Shown here: piece after piece, positions 15,398-36,662 of the stretch
How the letters are laid out: each line of letters begins with the position of its first letter
Numbering within the stretch: the first letter of the stretch is position 1
Source: Desulfobulbaceae bacterium
GTDB taxonomy: Bacteria > Desulfobacterota > Desulfobulbia > Desulfobulbales > Desulfobulbaceae
Direction: 5' to 3'
DNA: 37,593 bases
NCBI GenBank assembly: GCA_024763055.1
Contig: JANTGH010000019.1
Coordinates: 1 to 37,593, forward strand
Translations under genes and position numbers: made by a program
Notes under the pieces: model-generated
The model's input: only the letters and a program-made list of their open reading frames with translations
What the model was told of the DNA's origin: nothing
Databases searched by the model: none

Positions 15398-17206
15398 ATG
15401 ATGACGGAAAATATTAAAAATATACGAAATTTCAGTATTATTGCACACATAGACCATGGAAAATCCACCCTTGCCGATCGTATCATTCAAAGTTGTGACA
15501 TGGTGACAGATCGCGAATTTCAAAATCAATTGCTTGACAACATGGACATTGAACGGGAACGGGGAATTACTATAAAAAGCCAGACGATCTGCCTGCCGTA
15601 TACCGCTGCCGACGGAGAGACATATACCTTGAATCTTGTTGACACTCCCGGACACGTTGACTTCAGTTATGAAGTGTCAAGGGCATTGTCGTCCTGTGAA
15701 GGCGCATTGCTTCTCATTGACGCTGCCCAGGGCATTGAGGCTCAGACTCTGGCCAACCTCTATCTTGCCATGGAAAATGACCTTAAGATTATCCCGGTCA
15801 TCAATAAAATCGACCTGCCCGCGGCTGAACCGGAAAAAGTCGCGGCTTCCATTGAAGAAGACCTGGGACTTGAGGAAGAATCCATCCAAAAGTGTTCCGC
15901 TAAAACCGGCGAGGGCGTCGACAATCTGCTTGAAGCTATTGTCACCCTGCTGCCGCCTCCGGAAGGTGATCCTGATCAACCCCTTGAAGCGCTGATCTTC
16001 GATGCCCAATATGATCCGTACAGGGGAACAGTCATCTCAGTACGCATTATTAATGGTCGTTTAAAAGCCGGGGACACCATTATCTTCATGTCCAACAACG
16101 CCGATTACCGGGTAGAAGAAGTAGGGCTGTTTCATCTTGTGCGTACAAAGCAAAAAGAACTGTCCGCCGGGATGGTCGGCTATATTATTGCCGGGGTAAA
16201 AACCGTGTCCGACACCAGACCAGGCGACACCATTACCTTAAAGGAAAACCCCTGCCCTGCCCCTTTGCCCGGCTTTCGTGAGATCCAGCAGGTCGTGTTT
16301 TCCTCAATTTATCCGATAGCAACGGATGATTATGAAGACCTGGCAACAGCGCTTGAGAAACTCAAACTCAATGACGCCGCTCTTACCTTTCAAAAAGACT
16401 CGTCTGCCGCCCTCGGATTCGGTTTCCGCTGTGGCTTTCTTGGCCTCCTGCATCTTGAAGTCGTACAGGAAAGACTCGAACGGGAGTTTGGCATTTCCCT
16501 CATCCTCACCGTTCCCACGGTTAAATATATTTTCACCCTGCAGGACGGTACGATCAAGGAAGTCGACAATCCCTCCTATTTTCCGGATCCCGGCGCTATC
16601 GATCATGTTGAAGAACCTTTTATCAAGGCAACCATCCATATTCCGGAACGTTACATGGGAGTTGTCATGAACCTGTGCATGGAACGCCGCGGTGAAAACA
16701 CCAACTATCATTACCCCATGCCGGGCAGAATAGAATTTACCTGCGAACTTCCTCTTGCCGAGGTCATCTATGATTTTTATGATAAGTTAAAATCAGTCAC
16801 CCAGGGCTATGGCTCCTTTGACTATGAACTGCTCGATTATCGAAGGGCTGATCTCATTAAATTAGACATTCTGGTCAATGGTGAGCAGGTCGACGCCCTG
16901 TCGCAACTCACCCACCGGGACCGAGCCAGGGAAAGGGGCCTTAAAGCCTGTGAACGTCTGAAAGAGGAAATTCCGAGACAGATGTTTAAAATTGCCATTC
17001 AGGCAGCCATCGGCGGCACCATTATTGCCAGAACAAATATCTCCGCCCTGCGTAAGGACGTGACGGCTAAATGTTACGGGGGTGATATATCGCGGAAACG
17101 AAAACTGCTTGAGAAACAAAAGGCCGGCAAAAAACGGATGAAAACCGTGGGCAACGTTGAAATACCGCAGCGGGCCTTTCTTGCGGTGCTGAAGTCGGAT
17201 CAATAG
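15398..17206 (+). CDS. lepA: Translation elongation factor 4 (LepA)
   Basis: A 602-residue translational GTPase that acts on the ribosome (back-translocation or initiation-stage quality control). The G1 motif AHIDHGKST (16-24), the switch segment ERERGITIKSQTI, G3 DTPGHVDF and G4 NKIDLP are intact. EF-G-like domains III and V follow. The LepA-specific C-terminal domain ends in GGDISRKRKLLEKQKAGKKRMK. The length matches the family (about 600). Two adjacent ATGs are possible starts; neither has a good ribosome binding site. Confidence 0.98.
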   Translation: MMTENIKNIRNFSIIAHIDHGKSTLADRIIQSCDMVTDREFQNQLLDNMDIERERGITIKSQTICLPYTAADGETYTLNLVDTPGHVDFSYEVSRALSSCEGALLLIDAAQGIEAQTLANLYLAMENDLKIIPVINKIDLPAAEPEKVAASIEEDLGLEEESIQKCSAKTGEGVDNLLEAIVTLLPPPEGDPDQPLEALIFDAQYDPYRGTVISVRIINGRLKAGDTIIFMSNNADYRVEEVGLFHLVRTKQKELSAGMVGYIIAGVKTVSDTRPGDTITLKENPCPAPLPGFREIQQVVFSSIYPIATDDYEDLATALEKLKLNDAALTFQKDSSAALGFGFRCGFLGLLHLEVVQERLEREFGISLILTVPTVKYIFTLQDGTIKEVDNPSYFPDPGAIDHVEEPFIKATIHIPERYMGVVMNLCMERRGENTNYHYPMPGRIEFTCELPLAEVIYDFYDKLKSVTQGYGSFDYELLDYRRADLIKLDILVNGEQVDALSQLTHRDRARERGLKACERLKEEIPRQMFKIAIQAAIGGTIIARTNISALRKDVTAKCYGGDISRKRKLLEKQKAGKKRMKTVGNVEIPQRAFLAVLKSDQ

Positions 17207-17306
17207 AGATTAACCATTAGAAGTATCAAAAATAAAAATGGTGATGAACAAAAATCACCTGAAAGCCTTCTGTATTCCGGCTGGTGTGACGCAGAATTAA
17301 TTATAT
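17207..17306. other. Spacer after lepA
   Basis: About 100 bp between the lepA stop and the first repeat array, with no gene or convincing terminator. Confidence 0.4.
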
Positions 17307-17615
17307 GTCATTCCCGCAGTCTGTCCACTCCGTCATTCCCGCAGTCTGCCCACTCCGTCATTCCCGCGGTCTGCCCACTCCGTCATTCCCGCGGTCGTCC
17401 CACTTAGTCATTCCCGCGGTCGTCCCACTTAGTCATTCCCGCGGTCGTCCCACTTAGTCATTCCCGCAGTCTGTTGGGCGGGAATCCAGCATGTATCATG
17501 CGGTCGAGTATCTATCTGGATCCCCGATAACAGCACTCGGGGATGACGCCTTTTTCAGTCATTCCCGCGGTCGTCCCACTTAGTCATTCCCGCAGTCTGT
17601 TAGGCGGGAATCCAG
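17307..17615. repeat. 25-bp tandem repeat arrays ending in a complementary arm, plus CCCCGA palindrome
   Basis: The motif TCATTCCCGC recurs at 17308, 17333, 17358, 17383, 17408, 17433 and 17458, an exact 25-bp period (seven copies). Only the last copy runs into GGGCGGGAATCCA, so ATTCCCGC (17460-17467) can pair with GCGGGAAT (17478-17485). After a 30-nt spacer comes a second palindrome, TCCCCGA/TCGGGGA (17521-17527 and 17537-17543). A second array has two copies (17559 and 17584) and again ends in GGCGGGAATCCA. The spacer block recurs near 21.8 kb. These are dispersed REP-like elements with local expansion of one half. Confidence 0.93.
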
Positions 17616-17800
17616 TCTTTACCGGACCTTTTTCTTGTTACACCGCTGCGGTGTAACTGTGTAATCTTTAGCTTATAAACAAGGCTGCATACCCGCTTCT
17701 GCTGATAAACCGGGGTTCCTGAAATAGACTACATTTTCATAACAGCGCAGCGGTGTCATTGTTGTGCGGCAAGGCATGCTGGTTTATCCGGGAAGGCAAC
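17616..17800. other. Spacer between repeat array and terminator
   Basis: About 185 bp with no gene. CACCGCTGCGGTGT near 17641 forms a short inverted repeat and a related string, GCGCAGCGGTGT, occurs near 17745, so more dispersed repeat material may be present. Confidence 0.4.
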
Positions 17801-17834
17801 AAAAAAAGGGGCGCGCCTGCAACAGGCGCGCCCC
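17801..17834 (-). terminator. Rho-independent terminator of the FG-GAP-like protein gene
   Basis: GGGGCGCGCCTG (17808-17819) pairs perfectly with CAGGCGCGCCCC (17823-17834). On the minus strand the stem is followed by seven T (plus-strand A-run at 17801-17807). It lies about 30 bp past the stop codon. Confidence 0.93.
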
Positions 17835-17864
17835 GGATATATCAGAAACAAATACCATCATTCT

Positions 17865-19556
17865 TTATTCCTGCAGGGGCAGGATAAGAACTCGACTTGA
17901 ACCTTTGCTCTCGGAAAATATCCCCCCGCTGCTGACGGTCAAAACATAAAGTGCTCCGTTGGCTGCGCCTATCCCTTGAATATACTGGTCGTAATTACCA
18001 CCGATCTTGCCCTTTATGTACGAGCCGCTTTGGGTCTTTTTCAGCACGGATACCCAGGTTTTTTTAATATCGCTGGCGCCGCCAACGGTTGAAAAGACAG
18101 ACAAATCCGCACTCGGGACAAGTATCTCCCTGGTGCCGTCATTATCAATATCAACAGCCAGCGGCCGCACATCAATATTTGCATTAAAAAACAAAGGGTT
18201 TGCATCACCAGGATTCTGCACATAACGAACAGAGGACAAACTGCCGCCCATCTCTTTGCCACTCAGGTACACCTCCCGATGTCCTGTTGCCAAATGCAGT
18301 TTTTGGGCCAAGATATAGGCGGACACAGGTCCACTTTTCCCAACCGGTTGAAAAACAATCCCTCCGGTAACACGAAATGAAGTCGGGAGTGCAGTGCCGT
18401 ACTTCACAGTCTTTATGGTATTACCAGCGACTTTAACCTGATGTATTCCACCTCTGCCGAAAAAGGTATCCCGATCAAAATTCTGGGCCAACAGGGTTTC
18501 CGGCACACCATCACCATCAACATCACTGCTGCCTAAAATATAGGGAAATTGCCTTTGCACAGGAGTTATAGCTGCTTTACTGAAACGAAAAATTAATGAA
18601 CTTATATCATCTTCATCTTTATCATATCCGGTTATAGCAATATAAGGAGCTCCTGAATCCGGCTGCCACCAGCAGACAGACAACAGTTTGATCAGGGGCA
18701 TTTTAACCTTGGCTATATTCTGTAATCCCTTATCTGTTACCTGATAGACGGCAAGTGCATGTTGCTGGATCACGGCAAGATGCATTTTGCCATCCTTCAT
18801 AAGAAAGTCACCCATGACGGAGGAAAAGGGCAGATTGCCCCCCTGGTCATAGCCATAGGTCTGCATATCATAGCGTACTTTGCCGGTAGAGGAGTTAGCG
18901 GCAGCAACGGTAGCAACGCCTGCTCCGGCTGAATAAACAGGAGCATACGACTTCGCGGGTGCGGGTGATGGGGCAGCAGCTACCGGCTTTGCATCTAACT
19001 GATATTCCCTGACTTTCGCCCCATTTTGATTTTGAACAATAAGCAAATCACCTTTACGGATAAAGGTAAGTTCAACATCAGGTGTCTTTTTTTCCTGCCA
19101 GTTGAGGGCCTGCAACCCCTGTTGGAGACTGAAAAGAAAATGGCCCGAATGGCCTGTTTTATCGATAGCTGCAGCAGTGATTTCCTTAAAACGAACGAGT
19201 TTATCACCACGTTTGATCTTTAATTTTTGGTCAATTGATTTTGCATAGGAAAAAATTTTTTCAACCCGAGTTGCCTTAATAAGTCCGGCTCTTGATTCTA
19301 TTCGGCCAAGTACTTTACCGGTAATTGGATCGGTTAATTTTTTCCCGGCATGAAAAACCGTGAAAATGTCATCCTTGTGGACGCCGGCCTTACTGCCAAG
19401 ATCAATAATGATCTGTCCGTTGACCACATCCACCACGTACCCTTCAATGGGTTGCAGGTCATCTATAATATGAGTAAGGGTTGCGGCAATGGAAGTCCAG
19501 GCACTGCCGCAGACCAAGACAACGAAAAGACAACAGAGGCGGATAAAATTTTTCAT
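17865..19556 (-). CDS. Exported FG-GAP/beta-propeller-like protein of unknown role
   Basis: A 563-residue protein whose start is set by GGAGAG 7 nt upstream of the ATG at 19556. A signal peptide covers about residues 1-25 (ends SIAA). Residues about 30-110 form a small beta-domain with GYVVDVVNGQIIIDLGSKAGV and a KRGDKLVRF-type turn, resembling the FlgT-like/GW-type domains found in some envelope proteins. A Pro/Ala-rich linker follows (about 185-215). The remainder carries repeat blades with acidic DVDGDG and DIDNDG turns typical of FG-GAP/VCBS propellers. It is therefore probably periplasmic or surface-located. It lies downstream of the porin gene but each has its own terminator. A specific function is not recognised. 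Confidence 0.78.
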   Translation of the reverse strand: MKNFIRLCCLFVVLVCGSAWTSIAATLTHIIDDLQPIEGYVVDVVNGQIIIDLGSKAGVHKDDIFTVFHAGKKLTDPITGKVLGRIESRAGLIKATRVEKIFSYAKSIDQKLKIKRGDKLVRFKEITAAAIDKTGHSGHFLFSLQQGLQALNWQEKKTPDVELTFIRKGDLLIVQNQNGAKVREYQLDAKPVAAAPSPAPAKSYAPVYSAGAGVATVAAANSSTGKVRYDMQTYGYDQGGNLPFSSVMGDFLMKDGKMHLAVIQQHALAVYQVTDKGLQNIAKVKMPLIKLLSVCWWQPDSGAPYIAITGYDKDEDDISSLIFRFSKAAITPVQRQFPYILGSSDVDGDGVPETLLAQNFDRDTFFGRGGIHQVKVAGNTIKTVKYGTALPTSFRVTGGIVFQPVGKSGPVSAYILAQKLHLATGHREVYLSGKEMGGSLSSVRYVQNPGDANPLFFNANIDVRPLAVDIDNDGTREILVPSADLSVFSTVGGASDIKKTWVSVLKKTQSGSYIKGKIGGNYDQYIQGIGAANGALYVLTVSSGGIFSESKGSSRVLILPLQE

Positions 19557-26067: not shown

Positions 26068-26285
26068 TGCCATTTCTCCCGTTGCAGCCGAGTTGATAAT
26101 TTTTCTCAATTTTTTTTCACAAATAAAAAAAACCTGTACAATCTCTTTTCGATCCGTACAATACCAATAGAGGATTAAGAAAGCAAACCGCCATGCAGAC
26201 GATGGTGGCGGCAGGGAACTATGGGTCGTTCCATCTGTTTTTTCCCTGTATATATTTTAACAATACTGCACTCTTGGAGAAAAAA

Positions 26286-29204
26286 ATGTCCATAGAAGAT
26301 GATGAAATTTTGCAGGGATTTATTGAGGAATCACTGGAACATCTTGCCGACATTGAAAATGACCTGCTGGCTATTGAGGAAGGCGGCGCCGACATTGATG
26401 TCGATCTGGTCAACAAGGTTTTCCGTGCCGCCCATTCGATCAAAGGCGGGGCCGGTTTCATGGGGCTTACGGTCATTCAGAACCTGGCCCATGCCGCCGA
26501 GAATGTTCTTGGTTTGATCAGAAGTGAAAAGCTGGTCCCTGATCCCGACATTGTCAATGTTCTCCTGCTCGCCTCCGATGAGTTGCAGCAGCTCATTGAG
26601 GATGTGGAAAACAGTAATGATGTTGACATCACTGAGCATGTCGAAGCCTTAAACACTATCTACGAAGGCGGCAATGCCCCTCAGAAACCTTCTGACCAGC
26701 AGGAAGAGAAGAAAGAAGCCCCGGCCGAACCTGAGCCGCCCGCAATGGAGGCCGAATCAACGCCGATCGCTGAAGAACAGGAACCGCCGAAAGCCGTCGC
26801 CGAACCCGCGGCTGAAAGCACACCCGAACCTGTTGTTGAACAGACGCCTGAGCCCACTCCGGAGCCTGCCCCGACAACAACGGCGGCGCCGGCGGCCGTC
26901 AGCAGCCCGGATGTAAAACCTGCGGCAAAAAAACCCGCAAAAAAGGCAAAAAGCAGCACTCATAAAACCGATACCTCCATTCGGGTAACGGTCAGTCTCC
27001 TTGACCAGCTGATGAACCTTGCCGGAGAGCTTGTCCTGTCCCGCAACCAGCTCTTACAGACCATCACCTCTGGAGATGTCCGCAATGCAGAAGCTGTCGG
27101 CCAGCGCATCGATCTGGTTACCTCGGAATTGCAGGAAGCCATCATGCTGACCAGGATGCAGCCCATCGGCAACGTGTTCAATAAATTTCCGCGCGTGGTC
27201 CGTGACCTGTCCAAGAAGCTCAGTAAGCAGATGGACCTGACCATTGTCGGCAAGGATGTTGAACTCGATAAAACCATTATTGAGTCGATCAATGATCCCC
27301 TGACCCATCTTGTCAGAAATTCCGTTGACCACGGGGTGGAATCCCCGGATGAACGGGCGAGAAAAGGAAAAAACCCCAAGGGATTAATCGTTCTCAAGGC
27401 CTACCACGCGGCTGGCCAGGTCGTGATCGAGATCAGTGATGACGGCAAGGGTCTTGACGGAAATATATTAGCCGAAACCGCGATCAACAAAGGGTTGATC
27501 ACGCCCGAGCAGGCCAAGGCCATGTCGGATAAGGAACGGATCAACCTGATCCTGCTGCCCGGATTTTCCACGGCAAAAAAGGTCACCGATGTCTCCGGAC
27601 GCGGCGTGGGCATGGATGTGGTCAAGACCAACCTTGATCAGCTTGGCGGTTCCATTGAAATCGAGTCCGAAATCGGCAAGGGAAGCACCATCAGTATTAA
27701 ACTTCCCCTGACCCTGGCCATTATTCCCTGCCAGATTGTTATGACCGGCGGCGAGCGGTATGCCATTCCCCAGGTCAATCTTGAAGAGCTGCTTCGCATT
27801 CCCGCCGCCAAAGTCAAGGAACGGGTCGAGCGGGTCGGCAATGCAGAGGTCGTCCGGTTGCGGGGCAACCTTCTGCCATTGATCCGGCTCTCCGACGTGC
27901 TTGATATCCCGCGAACCTATTATGACCCGACAAGCGATGAGGTCAATCCTGATCGCCGCCGTGTGGTGGCCGACCGCCGGTCCAAATCCAGCCCTCTTTC
28001 CGCCGGTCAGGCGCCGGAAGAGCGCAGCAAAGAGCAGGCCGAAACTCCAACCTGTAAACGGGAGGATAAAGATCGCAGGCAGAGTCCTGCCAGCGCTCTG
28101 AACATTGTGGTTGTTTCCACAGGTTCCATGAAATACGGCCTGATTGTCGACCGTCTTCAGGATTCCGAAGAAATTGTTATCAAACCGCTTGGCAGGCATT
28201 TGCAGCAATGCAAGGGCTACGCCGGCGCCACCATTATGGGAGATGGTCGTATTGCTCTTATCCTTGATGTCAGCAACCTCTCCCGCATGGCCGGACTCAC
28301 CTCGCTCGATGGCACTGAGCGCGCCAACGAACTGGCGGAAGCGGCCAAGGACGCCATTATCAAGGCCAAGGATAAACAGGCCCTGCTGACCTTTTCCAGC
28401 TCGCCGAATGAACAGTTTGCGGTTCCGCTCAATCAGGTGGAACGGGTGGAAAAAATCAAGCACAGCGATATTGAAGAGGTCGGCGGCAGACGGGTCATGC
28501 AATACCGAGGCGGCAGTCTGCCGCTGCTCGCTATTGATGAGGTTGCCATGGTGCAGCCGCTTGCCGATCAGGATGATCTGCTGGTCATTGTCTTTAATCT
28601 TGCCGGCAAAGACATCGGCCTGCTTGCCATCGGTCCGATCGACGCCATAGAAATTGCCGCCGATATCGACGATGTCACCTTAAAACAGACAGGAATCATG
28701 GGGTCTGCAATAATCAATGGTCACACCACCATGCTGGTTGACATTTTTGAAATAGTGCAGACCATCAATCCTGAATGGTTCGCCGACCACGCCATTTCCG
28801 AAACAGTAGCCGAAGAAGGTGAGGCCCCGACCATCCTCATTGTTGAAGACTCCAATTTCTTCCGCAACCAGGTACGCGGCTACATGGAAGAGGCGGGCTT
28901 TAATGTGCTGGAAGGCGAAGATGGCGTCGAGGCCCTGCAAGTCCTTGAGGACCATCTTGACGAGATCACCATGGTGGTCACCGATATTGAAATGCCCAAC
29001 ATGAACGGTTTTGAAATGACGGAGAAAATACGCCGGGATTCCAGATTCGCTCACCTGCCGGTCATTGCCCTGACCACCCTGGCCGGTGATGAAGACGTGG
29101 CCAAGGGCAAAGCCGTCGGCATTGATGAATACCATATCAAACTTGACAAGGAACGCCTGATGGAATGCGTGCACCGCTATGTCAAGGAAGCGGAAACGGT
29201 CTGA
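26286..29204 (+). CDS. cheA: Hybrid chemotaxis histidine kinase CheA with C-terminal receiver
   Basis: A 972-residue CheA; ATG 26286 is chosen because TTGGAG lies 6 nt upstream and the HPt domain begins there. Order: P1 HPt with phospho-acceptor His50 (AAHSIKGGAGF); a Pro/Glu/Ala- and Lys-rich linker (about 125-228) in place of a recognisable P2; P3 dimerisation (about 230-290); HATPase (about 330-470, NDPLTHLVRNSVDHGVE, SGRGVGMDVV); a CheW-like P5 (about 475-670) interrupted by a charged insert at about 545-600; a second CheW-like domain (about 698-830); and a receiver (about 848-970) with Asp900. It phosphorylates CheB and response regulators under receptor control. It is first gene of the chemosensory operon and is followed by an MCP after 19 bp. 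Confidence 0.95.
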   Translation: MSIEDDEILQGFIEESLEHLADIENDLLAIEEGGADIDVDLVNKVFRAAHSIKGGAGFMGLTVIQNLAHAAENVLGLIRSEKLVPDPDIVNVLLLASDELQQLIEDVENSNDVDITEHVEALNTIYEGGNAPQKPSDQQEEKKEAPAEPEPPAMEAESTPIAEEQEPPKAVAEPAAESTPEPVVEQTPEPTPEPAPTTTAAPAAVSSPDVKPAAKKPAKKAKSSTHKTDTSIRVTVSLLDQLMNLAGELVLSRNQLLQTITSGDVRNAEAVGQRIDLVTSELQEAIMLTRMQPIGNVFNKFPRVVRDLSKKLSKQMDLTIVGKDVELDKTIIESINDPLTHLVRNSVDHGVESPDERARKGKNPKGLIVLKAYHAAGQVVIEISDDGKGLDGNILAETAINKGLITPEQAKAMSDKERINLILLPGFSTAKKVTDVSGRGVGMDVVKTNLDQLGGSIEIESEIGKGSTISIKLPLTLAIIPCQIVMTGGERYAIPQVNLEELLRIPAAKVKERVERVGNAEVVRLRGNLLPLIRLSDVLDIPRTYYDPTSDEVNPDRRRVVADRRSKSSPLSAGQAPEERSKEQAETPTCKREDKDRRQSPASALNIVVVSTGSMKYGLIVDRLQDSEEIVIKPLGRHLQQCKGYAGATIMGDGRIALILDVSNLSRMAGLTSLDGTERANELAEAAKDAIIKAKDKQALLTFSSSPNEQFAVPLNQVERVEKIKHSDIEEVGGRRVMQYRGGSLPLLAIDEVAMVQPLADQDDLLVIVFNLAGKDIGLLAIGPIDAIEIAADIDDVTLKQTGIMGSAIINGHTTMLVDIFEIVQTINPEWFADHAISETVAEEGEAPTILIVEDSNFFRNQVRGYMEEAGFNVLEGEDGVEALQVLEDHLDEITMVVTDIEMPNMNGFEMTEKIRRDSRFAHLPVIALTTLAGDEDVAKGKAVGIDEYHIKLDKERLMECVHRYVKEAETV

Positions 29205-29223: not shown

Positions 29224-30936
29224 ATGAAAAATCTAAGCATCAAGTGGAAAATTTTATTTCTGGTTGTTCTCGGCCCTGTCCTTGTGGGCTCGATCCTTGC
29301 CTGGCAGCGGGTCAATGACATCCGCAAGGGCGCTGAACATGCTATTATTTCAAAAAGCAGCGGAATTGTCCTGATGGCGGAGGCCACTCGTGACCGAATG
29401 GCAAAGAAGCTCAAGAGCGGTGTTATCACGCCCTTTGACCAGCTGAACGCAGACAACATTTTAGATGCCGTGCCGGTGGTAACCGCCCTCCAGGTCGCCT
29501 CAGACAAGGCCCAGGAGGCCGGTTATACTTTCCGGGCACCAAAAATGTCGCCGAGAAATCCGAAAAATACGCCCACCGCCCTGGAGCAGCAGGTGCTTGC
29601 CGAACTTAAAAATAAAAATCTATCTGAAAAGATCATTATAGAAAAGGACCAGATCAGATATTTCAAACCCATCCGGCTGACCAGCGAGTGTTTGTTCTGC
29701 CACGGCGATCCAAAAGGCGAGGCAGATGTGACCGGCGGCATCAAAGAGGGATGGAAAACCGGTGAAATACATGGCGCATTTGAAATCACCAGTTCCCTGG
29801 CCGAGGCCAACAGGGCGGTTGCCCGGGCCAGGATAAATGTCCTTCTCTGGCTGCTCGGAATCATCGGTTTTGTCGTGGCGGTTACCTGGATTATCCTGCA
29901 GCGTTCAATCGTTACCACCCTGCGCCAGGCCAATACCTTTATGGACACTGTTGCCCGGGGCGACCTGACAGGAACGCTCAAGGCAAAAACCGGGGACGAA
30001 ATCGGCCGGATGGTGCTCAACATGGGCGAGATGACCCGCAAGCTGAACGAACTGGTGAAGGACATCGGCTCTTCCAGCGCCACCCTGCTTGATTCTTCCA
30101 ATGAATTAGGGGCCACTGCCGATGAGTTCACGGAAAGCGCCGAAGATACCGCCGGTCGCACAAATTCGGTAGCGGCGGCGGCCGAGGAGATGAGCGCCAA
30201 CATGGCGACCGTTGCCGCGGCCACCGAAGAGGCGGCCACCAACATTGCCCTTGTTTCCACGGCAACCGATGAGATGACCTCGACCATCAACGGTATTGTC
30301 ACCTCTACGGAAAAGGCGCAGACCATTACCAAGACTGCCGTTGAAGAGGCCGGATCCGCCTCGGAAAAGGTTGATGAGTTAGGCATTGCCGCCAATGAAA
30401 TCGGCAAGGTAACCGAGACCATTACGGAAATCTCCGAACAGACCAACCTGTTAGCCTTAAATGCCACTATTGAGGCGGCCCGGGCCGGAGAGGCGGGCAA
30501 GGGTTTTGCCGTTGTTGCCAATGAAATCAAGGAACTGGCCAAGCAGACTGCCGAGGCCACAGGTGAAATCAAATCCCGCATCGATTCCATCCAGAATTCC
30601 ACCGAGGGCACAGTGGATCAGATCGGACAGATCACCAGGGTCATCAGCGAGGTGAATGAAATCGTAGCCTCCATTGTCACCGCGGTTGAGGAACAGTCGG
30701 CCACAACCGGCGAGATCGCCGAGAATATCAGCCAGGCCTCTATCGGTATCCAGGAGGTAACGGAAAACGTGGCCCAGGTCTCCACCGTGGCCGGCGAAGT
30801 AGCCCAGGATATCGGTGAAGTCAACCAGGCCTCGGAAGCTATTTCCAAAGGGTCGGCCGATGTCCGGACCAGTACTGATCGACTCAATGAAGTGGCAAGA
30901 CATCTCCGGAAAATGATAGATCGTTTTAAAGTCTAA
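29224..30936 (+). CDS. Methyl-accepting chemotaxis protein with periplasmic c-type haem motif
   Basis: A 570-residue transmembrane chemoreceptor. TM1 is about residues 9-26 and TM2 about 205-224. The periplasmic domain between them resembles DUF3365/Tll0287-like sensors and contains CLFCH (C156, C159, H160), a canonical covalent haem-c site, within a [16 protein letters not shown] context. HAMP follows (about 225-280), then a long signalling helix pair with the conserved hairpin [19 protein letters not shown]. The C-terminus RFKV lacks a CheR-binding pentapeptide. AGGAG lies 8 nt before the ATG. The likely stimulus is redox state or a small gas or ligand bound by haem, inferred from the family. 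Confidence 0.9.
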
Positions 30937-30982: not shown

Positions 30983-33142
30983 ATGAATTTTCTTCGACGC
31001 ATTACACCCAAAAGGGTAAAAACCAGGACCCTGGTGGCCCTTGGGATCATTATCGGCTTGATGATCGCCGTTCCGGTCATCCTGATGTATCGGAGCACTA
31101 TAAATGATGCTCGCAAAAAGACCACGACAACGCTTGAATATGATGCTGCCGTGATCAATCAACAACTACTTGAGCGTAGCGCGACACAACTGCGACTCCT
31201 GGCCCATGCCATTGCCGATAGTCTCAAAGTGCAGGAATACTTTGGGCAGCGGGACAGGGTGGCTCTGCTTGGAGTGACCATGCCCATTTACCATGATCTC
31301 AAAAAGATTATTGACCTCAACGTATTTCACTTTCACCTGCCGCCGGCAACCTCCTTTCTCCGGTTGCAGAAGCCCGGCAAACACGGTGATGATCTCTCAA
31401 GCTTTCGCCACACCGTGCTTGCCGTCAACAGAACCCATCAGGACGCATTCGGTCTTGAGGTCGGCAGGGCCGGTGTCTCTGTACGCGCCGTTGTTCCGGT
31501 CAATTATGAAGGACAGCCGGTTGGATCGGTGGAGTTCGGCATGCCGATCAACGATACCCTGCTGAAAACCATCAAGGAAAAAGTCGGGGTTGATTTTTCC
31601 TTTGTCATCCCTGACGGCAACGGCTTTAAATATCAGGCTAAGACCATGGCCGGCAATCTGTTGCCGGAAACCTATCCCCTGTTAAGTAAAGTTATGCAAG
31701 ATGGGAAAGAGACTATTGTCGAAAGCAAAAAAGATGGCAGAGATGTTATATCCATATATACGCCCTTGCCTGATTACAGCGGCAAGCTGGTAGGAGTGAC
31801 AATCGTGCCGCTGGATATCACCGACAAACTGACTGCCGCAAAAAAATCCGCTCTTACCATTGTTGGAATGGGTCTGCTTGCCCTTGTGGCAGTTCTGGTT
31901 CTTGTCTTTTTCATTTTCAACTTTATGATTGACCGGCCGTTGCATGCAGTCAACAAGGTGCTTGAAGCTGCCTCTAGTGGTGATCTCAGCACCCAGGCCG
32001 ATACCTCGAAAATTGCCGGTGTCAACTGTTCCGAGACTCTACAATGCGGCAAAACCGACTGCTCCATGTACGGCAAAACCGGCTATTGCTGGGAAGAGGC
32101 CGGTTCTGCCTCTCCTAACATTCAGTGCCCGAAGATTCTTTCCGGTGAATACAATTCCTGCAGCGAATGCAAGGCCTGTTACGGGGCCGTTGTCCAGGAC
32201 GAATTTTCCGAACTCAATGTTTCGGTGCATGCCCTTATTGCCAATACCCGGAAAATGGTGCGGGATATTCGGGAGAACAGCAGCAACCTGAATCTGTCTT
32301 CGGACAACCTTTCCAGTGTTGCTGAGCAAATGAATTCCGAAGCCTCGAATACTTCCCAGCGGTCAGAGAGTGTTGCCGCGGCGGCTGAAGAGATGAGCAC
32401 CAACATGGGCAGCGTGGCCGCAGCCACGGAAGAGGCGGCAGCTAATGTCAACATGATGACCACGGCCACCGAGGAAATCGGCTCCACGGTTGGCGAGATC
32501 CAGCAATCCACGGCCAAGGCCAAGGATATCACCGACCAGGCGGTTAAGGAAGCTGTTGATATCTCGGCCAAGGTGGATGAACTGGGCGATTCGGCCCAGG
32601 ACATCGGCAAGGTCACGGAAACCATCACCGAAATTTCCTCCCAGACCAACCTGCTTGCCTTAAATGCCACCATTGAAGCGGCCAGGGCCGGTGAGGCAGG
32701 CAAGGGCTTTGCCGTTGTCGCCAATGAAATCAAGGACCTGGCCAAACAGACGGCCGAGGCGACCGGCGAAATCAAACAACGGATCGAAAGCATCCAGAAC
32801 TCAACGAGTGTCACTGTCGGCGGCATTAGAACCATTACCGAAATCATCAATGAAATTGACGAAATCGTCTCCAACATCGCAACCGCCCTTGATGAACAGG
32901 CCGGCACCATGACCGAGCTGACCGTCAATATCCAGCAGGCCGGTGAGGGAATCGGTGAGGTCGCGGAAAACGTGGCGCAAAGCTCGACTGTTTCCCAGGA
33001 AATTGCAACCGACATTACCCAGGTCAACCAGGCGGCTGGTGAAATCACGGAAGGAACCAGCCAGGTTAAGGAAAAGGCAAATGAGCTCAAAGGGTATGCC
33101 GCCAACCTGAGGACACTGATTGAAAAATTCAACCTTGGTTAA
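30983..33142 (+). CDS. Methyl-accepting chemotaxis protein with dCache-type sensor and Cys-rich cytoplasmic insert
   Basis: A 719-residue chemoreceptor. TM1 is about residues 17-35 and TM2 about 292-314. The periplasmic region matches the dCache_3 pattern (VFHFHLPPATSFLRLQKPGKHGDDLSSFR and GLEVGRAGVSVRAVVPV, which are separate strings in the protein). Between HAMP and the signalling domain is an insert with eight cysteines in about 51 residues (349, 355, 360, 369, 382, 393, 396, 399) including YCWEEAG and CSECKAC. The signalling hairpin [19 protein letters not shown] is intact and there is no terminal pentapeptide. AGGAG lies 8 nt before the ATG. The insert resembles the two-CW protein at 22.1 kb and may bind a metal or sense redox state. 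Confidence 0.92.
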   Translation: MNFLRRITPKRVKTRTLVALGIIIGLMIAVPVILMYRSTINDARKKTTTTLEYDAAVINQQLLERSATQLRLLAHAIADSLKVQEYFGQRDRVALLGVTMPIYHDLKKIIDLNVFHFHLPPATSFLRLQKPGKHGDDLSSFRHTVLAVNRTHQDAFGLEVGRAGVSVRAVVPVNYEGQPVGSVEFGMPINDTLLKTIKEKVGVDFSFVIPDGNGFKYQAKTMAGNLLPETYPLLSKVMQDGKETIVESKKDGRDVISIYTPLPDYSGKLVGVTIVPLDITDKLTAAKKSALTIVGMGLLALVAVLVLVFFIFNFMIDRPLHAVNKVLEAASSGDLSTQADTSKIAGVNCSETLQCGKTDCSMYGKTGYCWEEAGSASPNIQCPKILSGEYNSCSECKACYGAVVQDEFSELNVSVHALIANTRKMVRDIRENSSNLNLSSDNLSSVAEQMNSEASNTSQRSESVAAAAEEMSTNMGSVAAATEEAAANVNMMTTATEEIGSTVGEIQQSTAKAKDITDQAVKEAVDISAKVDELGDSAQDIGKVTETITEISSQTNLLALNATIEAARAGEAGKGFAVVANEIKDLAKQTAEATGEIKQRIESIQNSTSVTVGGIRTITEIINEIDEIVSNIATALDEQAGTMTELTVNIQQAGEGIGEVAENVAQSSTVSQEIATDITQVNQAAGEITEGTSQVKEKANELKGYAANLRTLIEKFNLG

Positions 33143-33169: not shown

Positions 33170-33661
33170 ATGGAAACACAGACAAATCAAGATAAAAACA
33201 TCCTTGAACTTGCCACCTTTTATATTGGTGATGCCCTTTGCGGCATGGACATCTTGAAAGTTCAGGAAATCAATAAGTTGATGGAGATGACCAAGGTGCC
33301 ACAGGCCCCTGATTATGTAGATGGAATTTTAAACCTGCGCGGTCAGATTGTTACCATTGTTGATCTTGGGAAAAAATTAGGGCTTGGGGAAACCGATCTG
33401 GGCGATGATCCCCGCAACATCATAGTCAATGCGCCGGGAGAACATATTGGCCTGCTGGTCCGGCGTATCAGCGATGTGGTTATGGCCGATCCCGACCGCA
33501 TCGAATCCGCGCCGGCTAATATGAGCGGTATTCAGGGGACATTTTTTACCGGCGTCTATAAAACCGAAAATAAACTGATCGGTATTCTCAACGTCGAGGA
33601 GGTGTTGAAAATAGAGAAGGAAAGCCATCGCCATGGGCGGGCGGGAAATTTTGATAATTGA
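33170..33661 (+). CDS. cheW: Chemotaxis coupling protein CheW
   Basis: A 163-residue single-domain CheW that links receptors to CheA at the membrane array. Characteristic stretches are ELATFYIGDALCGMDILKVQEI, VPQAPDYVDGILNLRGQIVTIVDL and ILNVEEVLKIE. GAGGAT lies about 12 nt before the ATG. It directly follows the second MCP (27 bp). Confidence 0.96.
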   Translation: METQTNQDKNILELATFYIGDALCGMDILKVQEINKLMEMTKVPQAPDYVDGILNLRGQIVTIVDLGKKLGLGETDLGDDPRNIIVNAPGEHIGLLVRRISDVVMADPDRIESAPANMSGIQGTFFTGVYKTENKLIGILNVEEVLKIEKESHRHGRAGNFDN

Positions 33662-33842
33662 GCCATGGTTCAGGACATGAGCTCACGCATGCTGCGTGGT
33701 GTCACGAAAGTGAGCCAGACCGTCTGGTGGAGATAAAACACTGATCACCATCGCCACAGGCGCAAACTGAACCGTCTTCTGTCCTCTGTCCTCTGTCCTC
33801 TGTCCTCTGTCCTCTGTCTTCAGATAAAGATATCAGGTAATC
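33662..33842. repeat. Heptanucleotide repeat tract upstream of cheB
   Basis: TCTGTCC is repeated five times without interruption at 33778-33812, followed by a partial sixth copy ending in TCTGTCT. The tract ends about 25 nt before the cheB ATG, just upstream of AGGTAA. Copy-number change by slippage could alter the leader or spacing. CCAGACCGTCTGG (near 33715) is a small palindrome in the same 181-bp gap. No gene was seen. Confidence 0.85.
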
Positions 33843-34955
33843 ATGCTTGCAAAAAAAATAAAAGTGCTTGTTGTGGACGATACTATTGTATACCGCAAGG
33901 CCGTCAGTGATGTTCTACAAGAGATCCCCGGAGTTGAGGTGGTCGGAGTTGCTCATAATGGCAAAATTGCAATGTCGAAAGTCAAAACCCTCAAGCCCGA
34001 TCTTCTCACCCTTGACATTGAAATGCCTGAAATGAACGGCATTGAAGTGTTGGAGCATCTGCACAAAGAAGCGCCCGGAGTCAGCGCCATCATGGTCTCC
34101 ACCCTGACCTCCGAAGGTGGGGACATGACCATGAAAGCGCTTGAGCTCGGCGCCTATGACTTCCTGCTCAAACCAAATACAACCAACATTGCCGACTCAA
34201 AAAAACAGTTACGTGGACTCCTGACACCTTTGATCAAGGCCTTTCAAACGGGCAGAACAACAGTCGGATCCATGGGTGGTCGGCCTCCACGTCCACGCCC
34301 TTTGCCGGCAGCAGGCAGGCAACGAACTCCTGCCCGTCCCGCCAACGCAGTTGCAAGGGGAGCCGTTCGACGGGGTAAATCCGAGATAGTGACCATCGGC
34401 ATTTCCACCGGCGGACCCAACGCGCTTGCACGGATGATGCCCATGCTGCCCGGTGACCTGGGAGTGCCCATTGTTCTGGTCCAGCACATGCCGCCGGTCT
34501 TCACCAAATCACTTGCCGCCAGCCTGAATGCGAAATGCGCTCTGTCCGTCAAAGAGGCTGAAGATGGTGAACCAATCCGGGCAAATGTCGCCTACATCGC
34601 TCCGGGAGGAAAACAGATGAAGCTGGTTGCCTCAACCGACGGACAAAACCGGCTAATCAAACTGACCAATGATCCCCCGGAAAATTCATGCAGACCGTCG
34701 GTCGACTATCTCTTCCGCTCGGTTGCCGACTACTATGTGGGCCGGACTACTGCCGTCATTATGACCGGTATGGGCTCGGACGGGACAAAGGGGCTGGAAA
34801 TCCTGAAGAAAAAATCGGCCGTCATCATCGGCCAGGACAGGGCGACATGCGTTGTCTACGGCATGCCCAAAACGCCGGCGGAAAAAGGACTGATTGATGT
34901 GGTCGCCCCGCTTGACCGCATTGCCGCTGAAATCACCAAGACGGTGAAAGGATAA
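33843..34955 (+). CDS. cheB: Chemotaxis response regulator methylesterase CheB
   Basis: A 370-residue protein-glutamate methylesterase/deamidase that demethylates MCPs for adaptation. The receiver (1-120) has acidic pocket VDD at 11-13, phospho-acceptor Asp58 and Lys110. A basic Pro/Arg-rich linker spans about 140-178. The catalytic domain has Ser188 (GISTGGPNAL), His215 (LVQHMPP) and Asp313 (MTGMGSDGTKG). The length is typical. AGG lies 6-8 nt before the ATG. A heptamer repeat tract lies just upstream. cheR follows after 13 bp. Confidence 0.96.
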   Translation: MLAKKIKVLVVDDTIVYRKAVSDVLQEIPGVEVVGVAHNGKIAMSKVKTLKPDLLTLDIEMPEMNGIEVLEHLHKEAPGVSAIMVSTLTSEGGDMTMKALELGAYDFLLKPNTTNIADSKKQLRGLLTPLIKAFQTGRTTVGSMGGRPPRPRPLPAAGRQRTPARPANAVARGAVRRGKSEIVTIGISTGGPNALARMMPMLPGDLGVPIVLVQHMPPVFTKSLAASLNAKCALSVKEAEDGEPIRANVAYIAPGGKQMKLVASTDGQNRLIKLTNDPPENSCRPSVDYLFRSVADYYVGRTTAVIMTGMGSDGTKGLEILKKKSAVIIGQDRATCVVYGMPKTPAEKGLIDVVAPLDRIAAEITKTVKG

Positions 34956-34968
34956 GCAGACCCGGGCC

Positions 34969-35805
34969 ATGATCAAGATCACTCCCGAAGAACTCAAGAC
35001 AATAACCGGCTATATTCACGATATTTCCGGTATCCATCTCGAGGCTTCAAAAAAATACCTTCTTGAAACAAGACTTTCCAGTGTTGTCGAAGAACACGGT
35101 TGCGGCAGCTATCAGGAACTCTACCAGAAGGCGAAACGGGATGCCCGCAAGGTCATTGAAAAACAGATCATTGATGCTATTTCCACCAACGAAACACTGT
35201 TCTTTCGAGATAACGGGCCCTTTGAACTGTTACGCAACAAAATTCTCCCGGACCTGATTGATGCCCGCACACCGAGATCACCACGCCTGAAAACACCCCT
35301 GCGCATCTGGAGCGCCGCCTCGTCCACCGGCCAGGAAGTGTACTCCATTGCCATTGTCCTCAAAGAATTGTTAAACGATATTTCTAAATACAATATCAAA
35401 CTGTTAGGTACCGACATTTCCGATGCGGCGGTCAAACAGGCCAGTATGGGAAAATACAATAAATTTGAAATTGAACGCGGCCTGACCCGAGACAAGCTCA
35501 ATAAATATTTTACCCTGTCCGGTGGGTTCTGGAAAATCAAGGATGAAATCAGGGCAATGGCTAATTTTCGCAAACTCAATCTCATGCTGCCCTTTGCCGG
35601 ATTAGGCAAATTTGATATTGTTTTTTGTCGAAATGTGGCTATTTATTTTACTCTCGAAGACCGGAAAAAACTGTTTAACAAAATTGCGGATATCCTTGAA
35701 CCGGACGGCTATCTCATTATCGGTTCAACGGAATCATTGACTGGTATCTGCTCTCGTTTTACGCCCAAAAGGCATTTGCGCTCAATTTTTTATCAATTGA
35801 AATAA
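34969..35805 (+). CDS. cheR: Chemotaxis protein methyltransferase CheR
   Basis: A 278-residue SAM-dependent glutamate methyltransferase acting on MCP signalling helices. The N-terminal helical domain (1-70) precedes ISTNETLFFRD (71-81), the SAM site WSAASSTGQEVYSIA (114-128), GTDISDAAV and FCRNVAIYF. There is no TPR extension. Both MCPs here lack a pentapeptide tether, so this CheR probably acts without tethering. It is the last gene of the chemosensory unit before a repeat array. Confidence 0.96.
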   Translation: MIKITPEELKTITGYIHDISGIHLEASKKYLLETRLSSVVEEHGCGSYQELYQKAKRDARKVIEKQIIDAISTNETLFFRDNGPFELLRNKILPDLIDARTPRSPRLKTPLRIWSAASSTGQEVYSIAIVLKELLNDISKYNIKLLGTDISDAAVKQASMGKYNKFEIERGLTRDKLNKYFTLSGGFWKIKDEIRAMANFRKLNLMLPFAGLGKFDIVFCRNVAIYFTLEDRKKLFNKIADILEPDGYLIIGSTESLTGICSRFTPKRHLRSIFYQLK

Positions 35806-36000: not shown

Positions 36001-36098
36001 AAAGATGGTTGACCGCAAGATGCACTCTGGATTTAGGTTTAAGACTTTTTACGAAACCGACAAATAATGGCGCTTTGTTTTACGTTGGAGGATTCTTT

Positions 36099-36662
36099 AT
36101 GAACATGTCAATTCTTGTTGCCGACGATGATCCTGTAATCCGTCGTCTGTTGGAAAAAAGACTTGGGGACGTGGGATACGGTGTGACAGTTGCCGTTGAT
36201 GGCGTTGAAGCGGCCGGGAAGTTGGCTTCCTCCCATTTCGATGTGGTTATAACCGACCTCGTCATGCCGGGAGATATCGGTGGAATTGAACTTTTGCAGA
36301 TTGCAAAAGATAAGGATATAATGACGGAAGTCATTGTCATAACCGCACATTCATCAATTGACACCGCTGTGGATGCCATGAAAAAAGGGGCCGTTGATTA
36401 TCTTGAAAAACCGGTCAATTTTGATGAACTGTTCCTGCGGCTTGAAAAAATTGCTCAGCTTAAATCTCTTGTCCGTAATGCTGATGACCTGCGAAATGCC
36501 ATGGATGTCACCGAGTCGTCAGCCGCGCAAACTATTCAGAACCTGGAAATTACCGCTGCTGATTTACAGTTGAAAATTGATCAAATCGATACATTCCTTC
36601 GCGATTCTCAGCTTAATGAGTATGATAAAATTGACAAGGCGCTGCAGGTTATCGGTTCCTGA
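36099..36662 (+). CDS. Response regulator with receiver domain and C-terminal coiled coil
   Basis: A 187-residue protein; the start at 36099 has GGAGG 7 nt upstream. Residues 1-118 are a receiver with acidic pair D10/D11, phospho-acceptor Asp53 (ITDLVMPGDIGG), the Thr in VITAHSS and Lys104 (YLEKPVN). Residues about 120-187 have a heptad-like, probably coiled-coil pattern and no DNA-binding or enzymatic output domain. Its position just past cheR makes it a candidate output regulator for this chemosensory system, though it has its own leader. It could also pair with the HPt protein at 5.9 kb. Both links are inference. Confidence 0.85.
   Translation: MNMSILVADDDPVIRRLLEKRLGDVGYGVTVAVDGVEAAGKLASSHFDVVITDLVMPGDIGGIELLQIAKDKDIMTEVIVITAHSSIDTAVDAMKKGAVDYLEKPVNFDELFLRLEKIAQLKSLVRNADDLRNAMDVTESSAAQTIQNLEITAADLQLKIDQIDTFLRDSQLNEYDKIDKALQVIGS

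Follow-up and report, generated by a model that had tools for sequence, protein, structure and literature searches.

A haem-c type chemoreceptor of the sCache_heme kind with a rebuilt distal site in a Desulfobulbaceae chemotaxis operon, and signs of sensor exchange among its relatives

Directly behind cheA in a chemotaxis operon of a Desulfobulbaceae bacterium lies the gene for a chemoreceptor (MCP) of 570 amino acids, the plus-strand ORF 29224-30936 of the window (the whole stretch of 37,593 nucleotides analysed here). By its sequence and predicted fold the receptor is of the sCache_heme/PF11845 kind. We consider it reasonably likely that it is a membrane-spanning receptor in which NO, the most likely candidate, or the redox state of the iron alters the distal ligation of a haem and thereby signals to the CheA of the operon. 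The receptor family is already described and established, and it is common in this order; the novelty is confined to the rebuilt distal site and to an exchange of sensor domains found in related genomes. The analysis also gives a haem-sensor family that was named only recently a place in a specific chemotaxis operon, one that encodes a CheA of its own. The features concerned are the following.

26286..29204, +, cheA: Hpt, H-kinase dimer, HATPase_c, CheW and C-terminal receiver domains (Pfam, homologue starts)
29224..30936, +, haem-c chemoreceptor gene (ORF list, translation, Pfam)
29245..29307, +, membrane helix 1, residues about 8-28 (hydropathy)
29329..29793, +, Tll0287-like (PF11845, sCache_heme) periplasmic sensor, residues 36-190 (Pfam, AF2 model, VIA)
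29398..29400, +, Met59, putative distal haem ligand (74-row alignment)
29467..29475, +, Ala82-Val83-Pro84, at the Ala-Met-Ser place of other PF11845 members (alignment, profile comparison)
29689..29703, +, CXXCH haem-c attachment motif, C156-L-F-C159-H160 (sequence, alignment)
29836..29901, +, membrane helix 2, residues about 205-226 (hydropathy)
29899..30048, +, HAMP, residues 226-275 (Pfam)
30304..30789, +, MCP signalling domain, best stretch residues 361-522 (Pfam)
30983..33142, +, second MCP: dCache_3 sensor, Cys-rich segment, signalling domain (Pfam, sequence, relatives' Cys counts)
33170..33661, +, cheW (Pfam)
33843..34955, +, cheB (Pfam)
34969..35805, +, cheR (Pfam)
36009..36662, +, receiver-domain protein, conserved at the operon end (Pfam, synteny)

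The receptor ORF begins 19 bases 3′ of cheA, and AGGAG precedes its ATG. Its sensor matches PF11845 over residues 36-190 (E 8.6e-29; 101.3 bits against a cut-off of 24.1), in agreement with the Tll0287/DUF3365-like context proposed in an initial annotation. A HAMP match (26.8 bits, cut-off 25) and an MCPsignal match (E 1.1e-33, residues 361-522) with a conserved hairpin tip identify the protein as an MCP, and Pfam found no cytoplasmic PAS domain in it. The motif C156-L-F-C159-H160 is the sole CXXCH in the 31 non-overlapping window ORFs of at least 90 amino acids (10814 residues), where 0.034 would be expected from composition, and C156 and C159 are the only cysteines of the protein. Hydropathy (19-residue Kyte-Doolittle windows, threshold >1.4) places the motif between two hydrophobic segments, residues 3-31 and 198-233, with a peak of 1.06 in between, as expected from the annotated location of the motif in a periplasmic domain flanked by two membrane helices. 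CXXCH is kept in all 74 rows of the family alignment, which consists of the window protein and 73 of the 80 loci returned by a genome scan (L104, L107, L111, L118, L122, L137 and L158 were left out beforehand). Together with PF11845, HAMP and MCPsignal, this conservation upholds, at the level of sequence, the earlier designation as a haem-c type chemoreceptor.

The predicted fold leads to the same family. An AlphaFold2 model of residues 28-221 (pLDDT 94.0, pTM 0.86) finds the haem protein Tll0287 (5b82) as its top solved match in Foldseek (E 8e-7) and aligns with it by VIA at Z 14.5 and 3.3 Å over 149 residues, the next row having Z 8.4; 5b82 also ranks first in sequence searches of solved structures. 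The solved chains of GSU0582 and GSU0935 were not among the matches listed in the sequence searches or in either structural comparison of the window sensor. According to the available parts of a 2026 preprint by Deshpande et al. (PMC12889525), the DUF3365/Tll0287-like family, there named sCache_heme, has CXXCH in 99% of members and a Cache fold into which a haem helix is inserted; GSU0582 and GSU0935, the haem MCPs of Geobacter, are counted in it. The model has this hallmark: CXXCH 156-160 (model residues 129-133) lies within a helix (model residues 127-133) in an extra helix/loop that separates two strands of the Cache sheet (116-124 and 155-164). Motif and fold thus suggest that a c-type haem would be covalently held by C156 and C159.

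Maturation of such a haem is within the capacity of the genome, although by a different route from the ccm genes that the initial annotation had pointed to. PF01578 matches once, in a protein that is CcsB (E 2.6e-87); ResB adjoins it (E 2e-83), and a multihaem cytochrome ORF was seen by eye beside the two. Cytochrome c maturation in this genome is therefore by System II (ResB/CcsB) and not by Ccm. The presence of CcsB and ResB means that the genome does not lack cytochrome c maturation machinery, a lack that had been named as grounds for giving up the haem assignment. A Cache domain that holds no haem and keeps CXXCH as a relic is highly improbable here, given the maturation genes, the retention of the motif throughout the alignment and its near-universal occurrence in the family (PMC12889525).

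The distal side of the haem sets this clade apart. Because the only two cysteines both lie within CXXCH, the His/Cys ligation of the Tll0287 type is excluded, and with no distal Cys among the 570 residues we rejected assignment to that subgroup. In GSU0935 the ligands are Met60 and His144, a spacing of 84 (PMC8396549); a His/Met site of this type was likewise rejected, since residue 76, at that spacing, is Ala and the aligned column is Val83. The latter placement comes from comparing profiles: when the 74-row alignment is set against 27 other PF11845 sequences (27 of 31 translated loci from related genomes), A82-V83-P84 falls on Ala-Met-Ser of the other members (probability 99.4, E 1e-21). Met, a probable distal ligand, occurs there in 24 of the 27 sequences, 84-86 residues ahead of the haem His in those 24; its correspondence to Met60 of GSU0935 is one of equal spacing alone, not of compared sequences. 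Position 83 is occupied by Val in 70 of the 74 rows and by Ile in the other 4, and Pro follows it in every row. The scan was seeded on two motifs, one with AVP and the other with His183, so that the conservation of P84 and H183 over the 74 rows is partly built in. Met59, kept in 72 of 74 relatives, lies outside both seed motifs, and a set of ten sequences gathered without a motif seed (nine orthologues besides the window protein) shows no variation at P84, M51 or M59, while nine of the ten have His183. With neither a distal Cys nor a Met at the aligned place, the distal site of the Val-Pro clade would be either open (water) or closed by Met59, which could serve as the distal ligand; both arrangements would suit ligand switching. 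In six more distant relatives (L152-L157) the early part of the sensor domain has an additional Cys, close to where Met51 stands, which might act as distal ligand instead.

These observations can be combined in a mechanism. A periplasmic c-type haem attached to C156 and C159 would have H160 as its proximal ligand, as motif and fold suggest, and a distal side that, without Cys or the usual Met, would be either open to water or closed by Met59. The distal ligation would shift when the iron is reduced or oxidised or when it binds a small molecule, for which NO is the most likely candidate. Helix 2 and HAMP would relay this change to the tip of the signalling domain, where it would alter the activity of the CheA from the same operon; CheW, CheB and CheR would act as coupling and adaptation proteins. 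We infer both the signal, NO or redox, and the direction of the response. By analogy NO appears most likely: the one signalling-type sCache_heme member tested, which has no axial Cys, binds NO tightly and forms no stable oxygen complex in the account available (PMC12889525), and the Cys is missing here too. The work on Geobacter haem MCPs would instead favour a redox signal. In the passages of PMC8396549 and PMC3460858 that cover ligation, potentials and gas binding, GSU0582 and GSU0935 bind NO and CO, and they are read as redox switches, with potentials of -156 and -251 mV (PMC8396549); as DcrA has in turn been proposed as a redox or oxygen sensor, NO is not the sole candidate. Cultured Desulfobulbus also has the operon, which opens the choice between NO and redox to behavioural tests.

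A pure sensor of redox potential, in which reduction would put Met59 on the iron and oxidation would free it, so that the periplasmic redox state rather than a gas is reported, is a serious possibility but not a probable one. Sulfate reducers live across redox gradients, and the relatives of the receptor are, judged by name, largely sulfate-reducer-type organisms, which speaks for this alternative; the kind of organism also counts for the next one. The retention of Met59 in almost all relatives and the published model of GSU0582 and GSU0935, with its change of spin and ligation on redox at the potentials given above (PMC8396549), also count in its favour; against it, the canonical distal Met is absent, Met59 is a ligand by inference only, and the sole signalling-type member tested behaved as an NO sensor (PMC12889525). 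A different haem-binding molecule (CO or sulfide, for instance) or oxygen, as proposed for DcrA (oxygen or redox), is unlikely to be the signal: reduced GSU0582 and GSU0935 do bind CO (PMC8396549), but neither family member tested formed a stable oxygen complex (PMC12889525).

As to a source of NO, searches of this genome returned no match to NrfA and no NapA above cut-off, so that NO would arrive from outside or by an unknown route. The genome does hold a gene for the hydroxylamine reductase Hcp together with a divergent Crp-family regulator gene. Hcp with a Crp-family regulator is often tied to nitrosative stress, and the pair fits exposure to such stress.

Haem receptors of this kind had been described as uncommon, a view that the survey does not bear out: PF11845 was found in 88 of 96 related genomes (above cut-off in 87), and this genome has three copies, in the window MCP, a histidine kinase and a fusion to a Ser/Thr kinase. 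The fusion (L077, G000:C2:30001-50000, 16209-17915, +) joins a Tll0287-like haem-c Cache domain (E 4e-38) to a Ser/Thr protein kinase domain (E 1.2e-25), near the divergent Tll0287-like histidine kinase (L077:5859-8435, -); ORF pairs of similar sizes occur in other genomes, and the sCache_heme preprint (PMC12889525) does not mention a Ser/Thr kinase (Pkinase) fusion. A whole-protein search of 57 genomes, this one included, found full-length relatives of the haem MCP (55-86% identity) in five others, G001, G012, G020, G035 and G046, and one cut by a contig end in G005. G075, G077 and G095 entered through the PF11845 survey and neighbourhood reading, and G079, G096 and G097 through the survey of the interval behind cheA.

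The genes around the receptor form an operon whose order in relatives is FKBP, cheA, haem MCP, (second MCP), cheW, cheB, cheR, receiver. Terminator-like sites on the plus strand are absent from the cheA/haem-MCP and haem-MCP/next-MCP junctions, so that cheA, the haem MCP and the next MCP are likely to be co-transcribed. The listed ATG of cheA is at 26193; relatives start at MSIEDDEIL (26286), and the 31-residue leader added by the listed start is uncovered in most relatives' alignments. ATG 26286 is probably the true start. In G001, cheA has a stop codon within the matched stretch. A short tandem repeat with a unit of about TGTCCTC lies between cheW and cheB (33778-33820), and Rfam gave no match in the window. 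An orthologous cheA stands directly upstream in 9 of the 80 haem-receptor loci, including those of Desulfobulbus elongatus and D. rhabdoformis, many of the remaining loci being on contigs too short to show it.

We compared the interval between cheA and cheW across genomes. Of 145 related genomes searched, 58 have a strong CheA match, and the 38 with the closest version were used, which leaves aside G004 and G100 (contig ends) and 18 genomes with a more distant CheA. The interval has no receptor in 22 of the 38, the haem MCP alone in 6, the haem MCP with a Cys-rich MCP in 3 (this genome, G001, G005), an N-box PilJ MCP with the Cys-rich MCP in 4 (G011, G012, G022, G030) and the Cys-rich MCP alone in 3 (G002, G003, G006); the interval of G006 holds a run of N, and those of G005, G011 and G030 were each read across two contigs. 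The haem MCP is thus present in 9 genomes, and the Cys-rich MCP without it in 7. The Cys-rich MCP, the operon neighbour at 30983-33142, is kept in relatives as part of this slot; its Cys-rich segment is cytoplasmic, after the second membrane helix, and has no Pfam match. The initial annotation had recognised this neighbour correctly and had suggested that the two receptors make up a redox-taxis system. Since no more than 3 of 38 genomes have both in the slot, the pairing is not a conserved unit and lends that proposal no support.

The receptors that replace the haem MCP in this slot point to an exchange of sensors. The slot receptor of G022 has a PilJ domain (Pfam, E 1.4e-15) with the string INLAGRQRMLSQ, identical in G030, in agreement with the nitrate-binding N-box pattern given for McpN-type PilJ nitrate chemoreceptors in the part of PMC6381276 available. 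Against the window receptor it shows at most 30% identity per 30-residue block over residues 1-270 and 76-100% over residues 331-540, comparable to the 73-100% of the true haem orthologue in G012; the N-box receptor of G012 reaches only 46-93% there. When 101 signalling domains are placed in a tree, the N-box receptors of G022 and G030 fall inside a clade otherwise of haem receptors (21 of 23 haem, support 0.991; 32 of 34 haem, support 0.995). Block identities and tree placement together indicate that at least one lineage has a chimera, with a different sensor on the signalling body of the haem receptor; the nesting suggests that the haem receptor came first. Such a natural chimera speaks for an exchange of sensors on a common receptor body, and it offers a ready-made control in which the signalling part is the same and the input different. 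Elsewhere in this genome (L190, G000:C103) an N-box PilJ sensor belongs to an MCP that has PilZ as its C-terminal domain.

We offer only tentatively, as a possibility short of even odds, that the slot behind cheA takes interchangeable receptors for nitrogen-oxide or electron-acceptor cues, either a haem-c Cache sensor with a rebuilt site (Val-Pro, possibly a movable Met59) or, by sensor swap, a nitrate-binding N-box PilJ sensor. That the slot sensor tracks nitrate or nitrite respiration is not supported by the gene counts: of the 9 genomes with a haem slot 5 have a full-size NrfA match above cut-off, and of the 4 with an N-box slot none has one (G012, with an N-box slot, has a short partial match barely above cut-off), and NapA is above cut-off in 1 of the 9 and 1 of the 4. 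Literature searches, with most subscription journals outside their reach, returned no paper using "domain swap" on this topic and none joining Desulfobulbus, chemotaxis, heme and chemoreceptor.

Several known systems resemble the window receptor in part. It shares with the sCache_heme fusions described in the available parts of PMC12889525 the Pfam domain, a single CXXCH, two membrane helices, HAMP and a signalling output, and, as in the NO-binding Target 2 of P. azotoformans, the axial Cys is absent; unlike the proteins of that study, it has an MCP output, a Desulfobulbaceae-type genome and a distal Val-Pro, and is known from sequence. Tll0287 (5b82) is the best match of the sensor in both sequence and fold, but it is a stand-alone protein with His/Cys ligation (PMC12889525), whereas the window protein is a receptor without a third Cys. 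Like GSU0582 and GSU0935 as they are portrayed in the passages cited, the window protein is predicted to combine a haem-c type periplasmic sensor with HAMP and MCP domains, although the Met spacing of GSU0935 is not kept. DcrA of the sulfate reducer Desulfovibrio vulgaris, in the descriptions at hand, is also a haem-c type MCP; it additionally carries a cytoplasmic PAS domain, of a kind not found in the window protein. McpN-type PilJ nitrate receptors (PMC6381276, in part) differ in the sensor itself, a four-helix nitrate domain as against the haem Cache domain of the window protein, yet in related genomes the same slot is filled by an N-box PilJ receptor, which in one lineage has its signalling body in common with the haem receptor.
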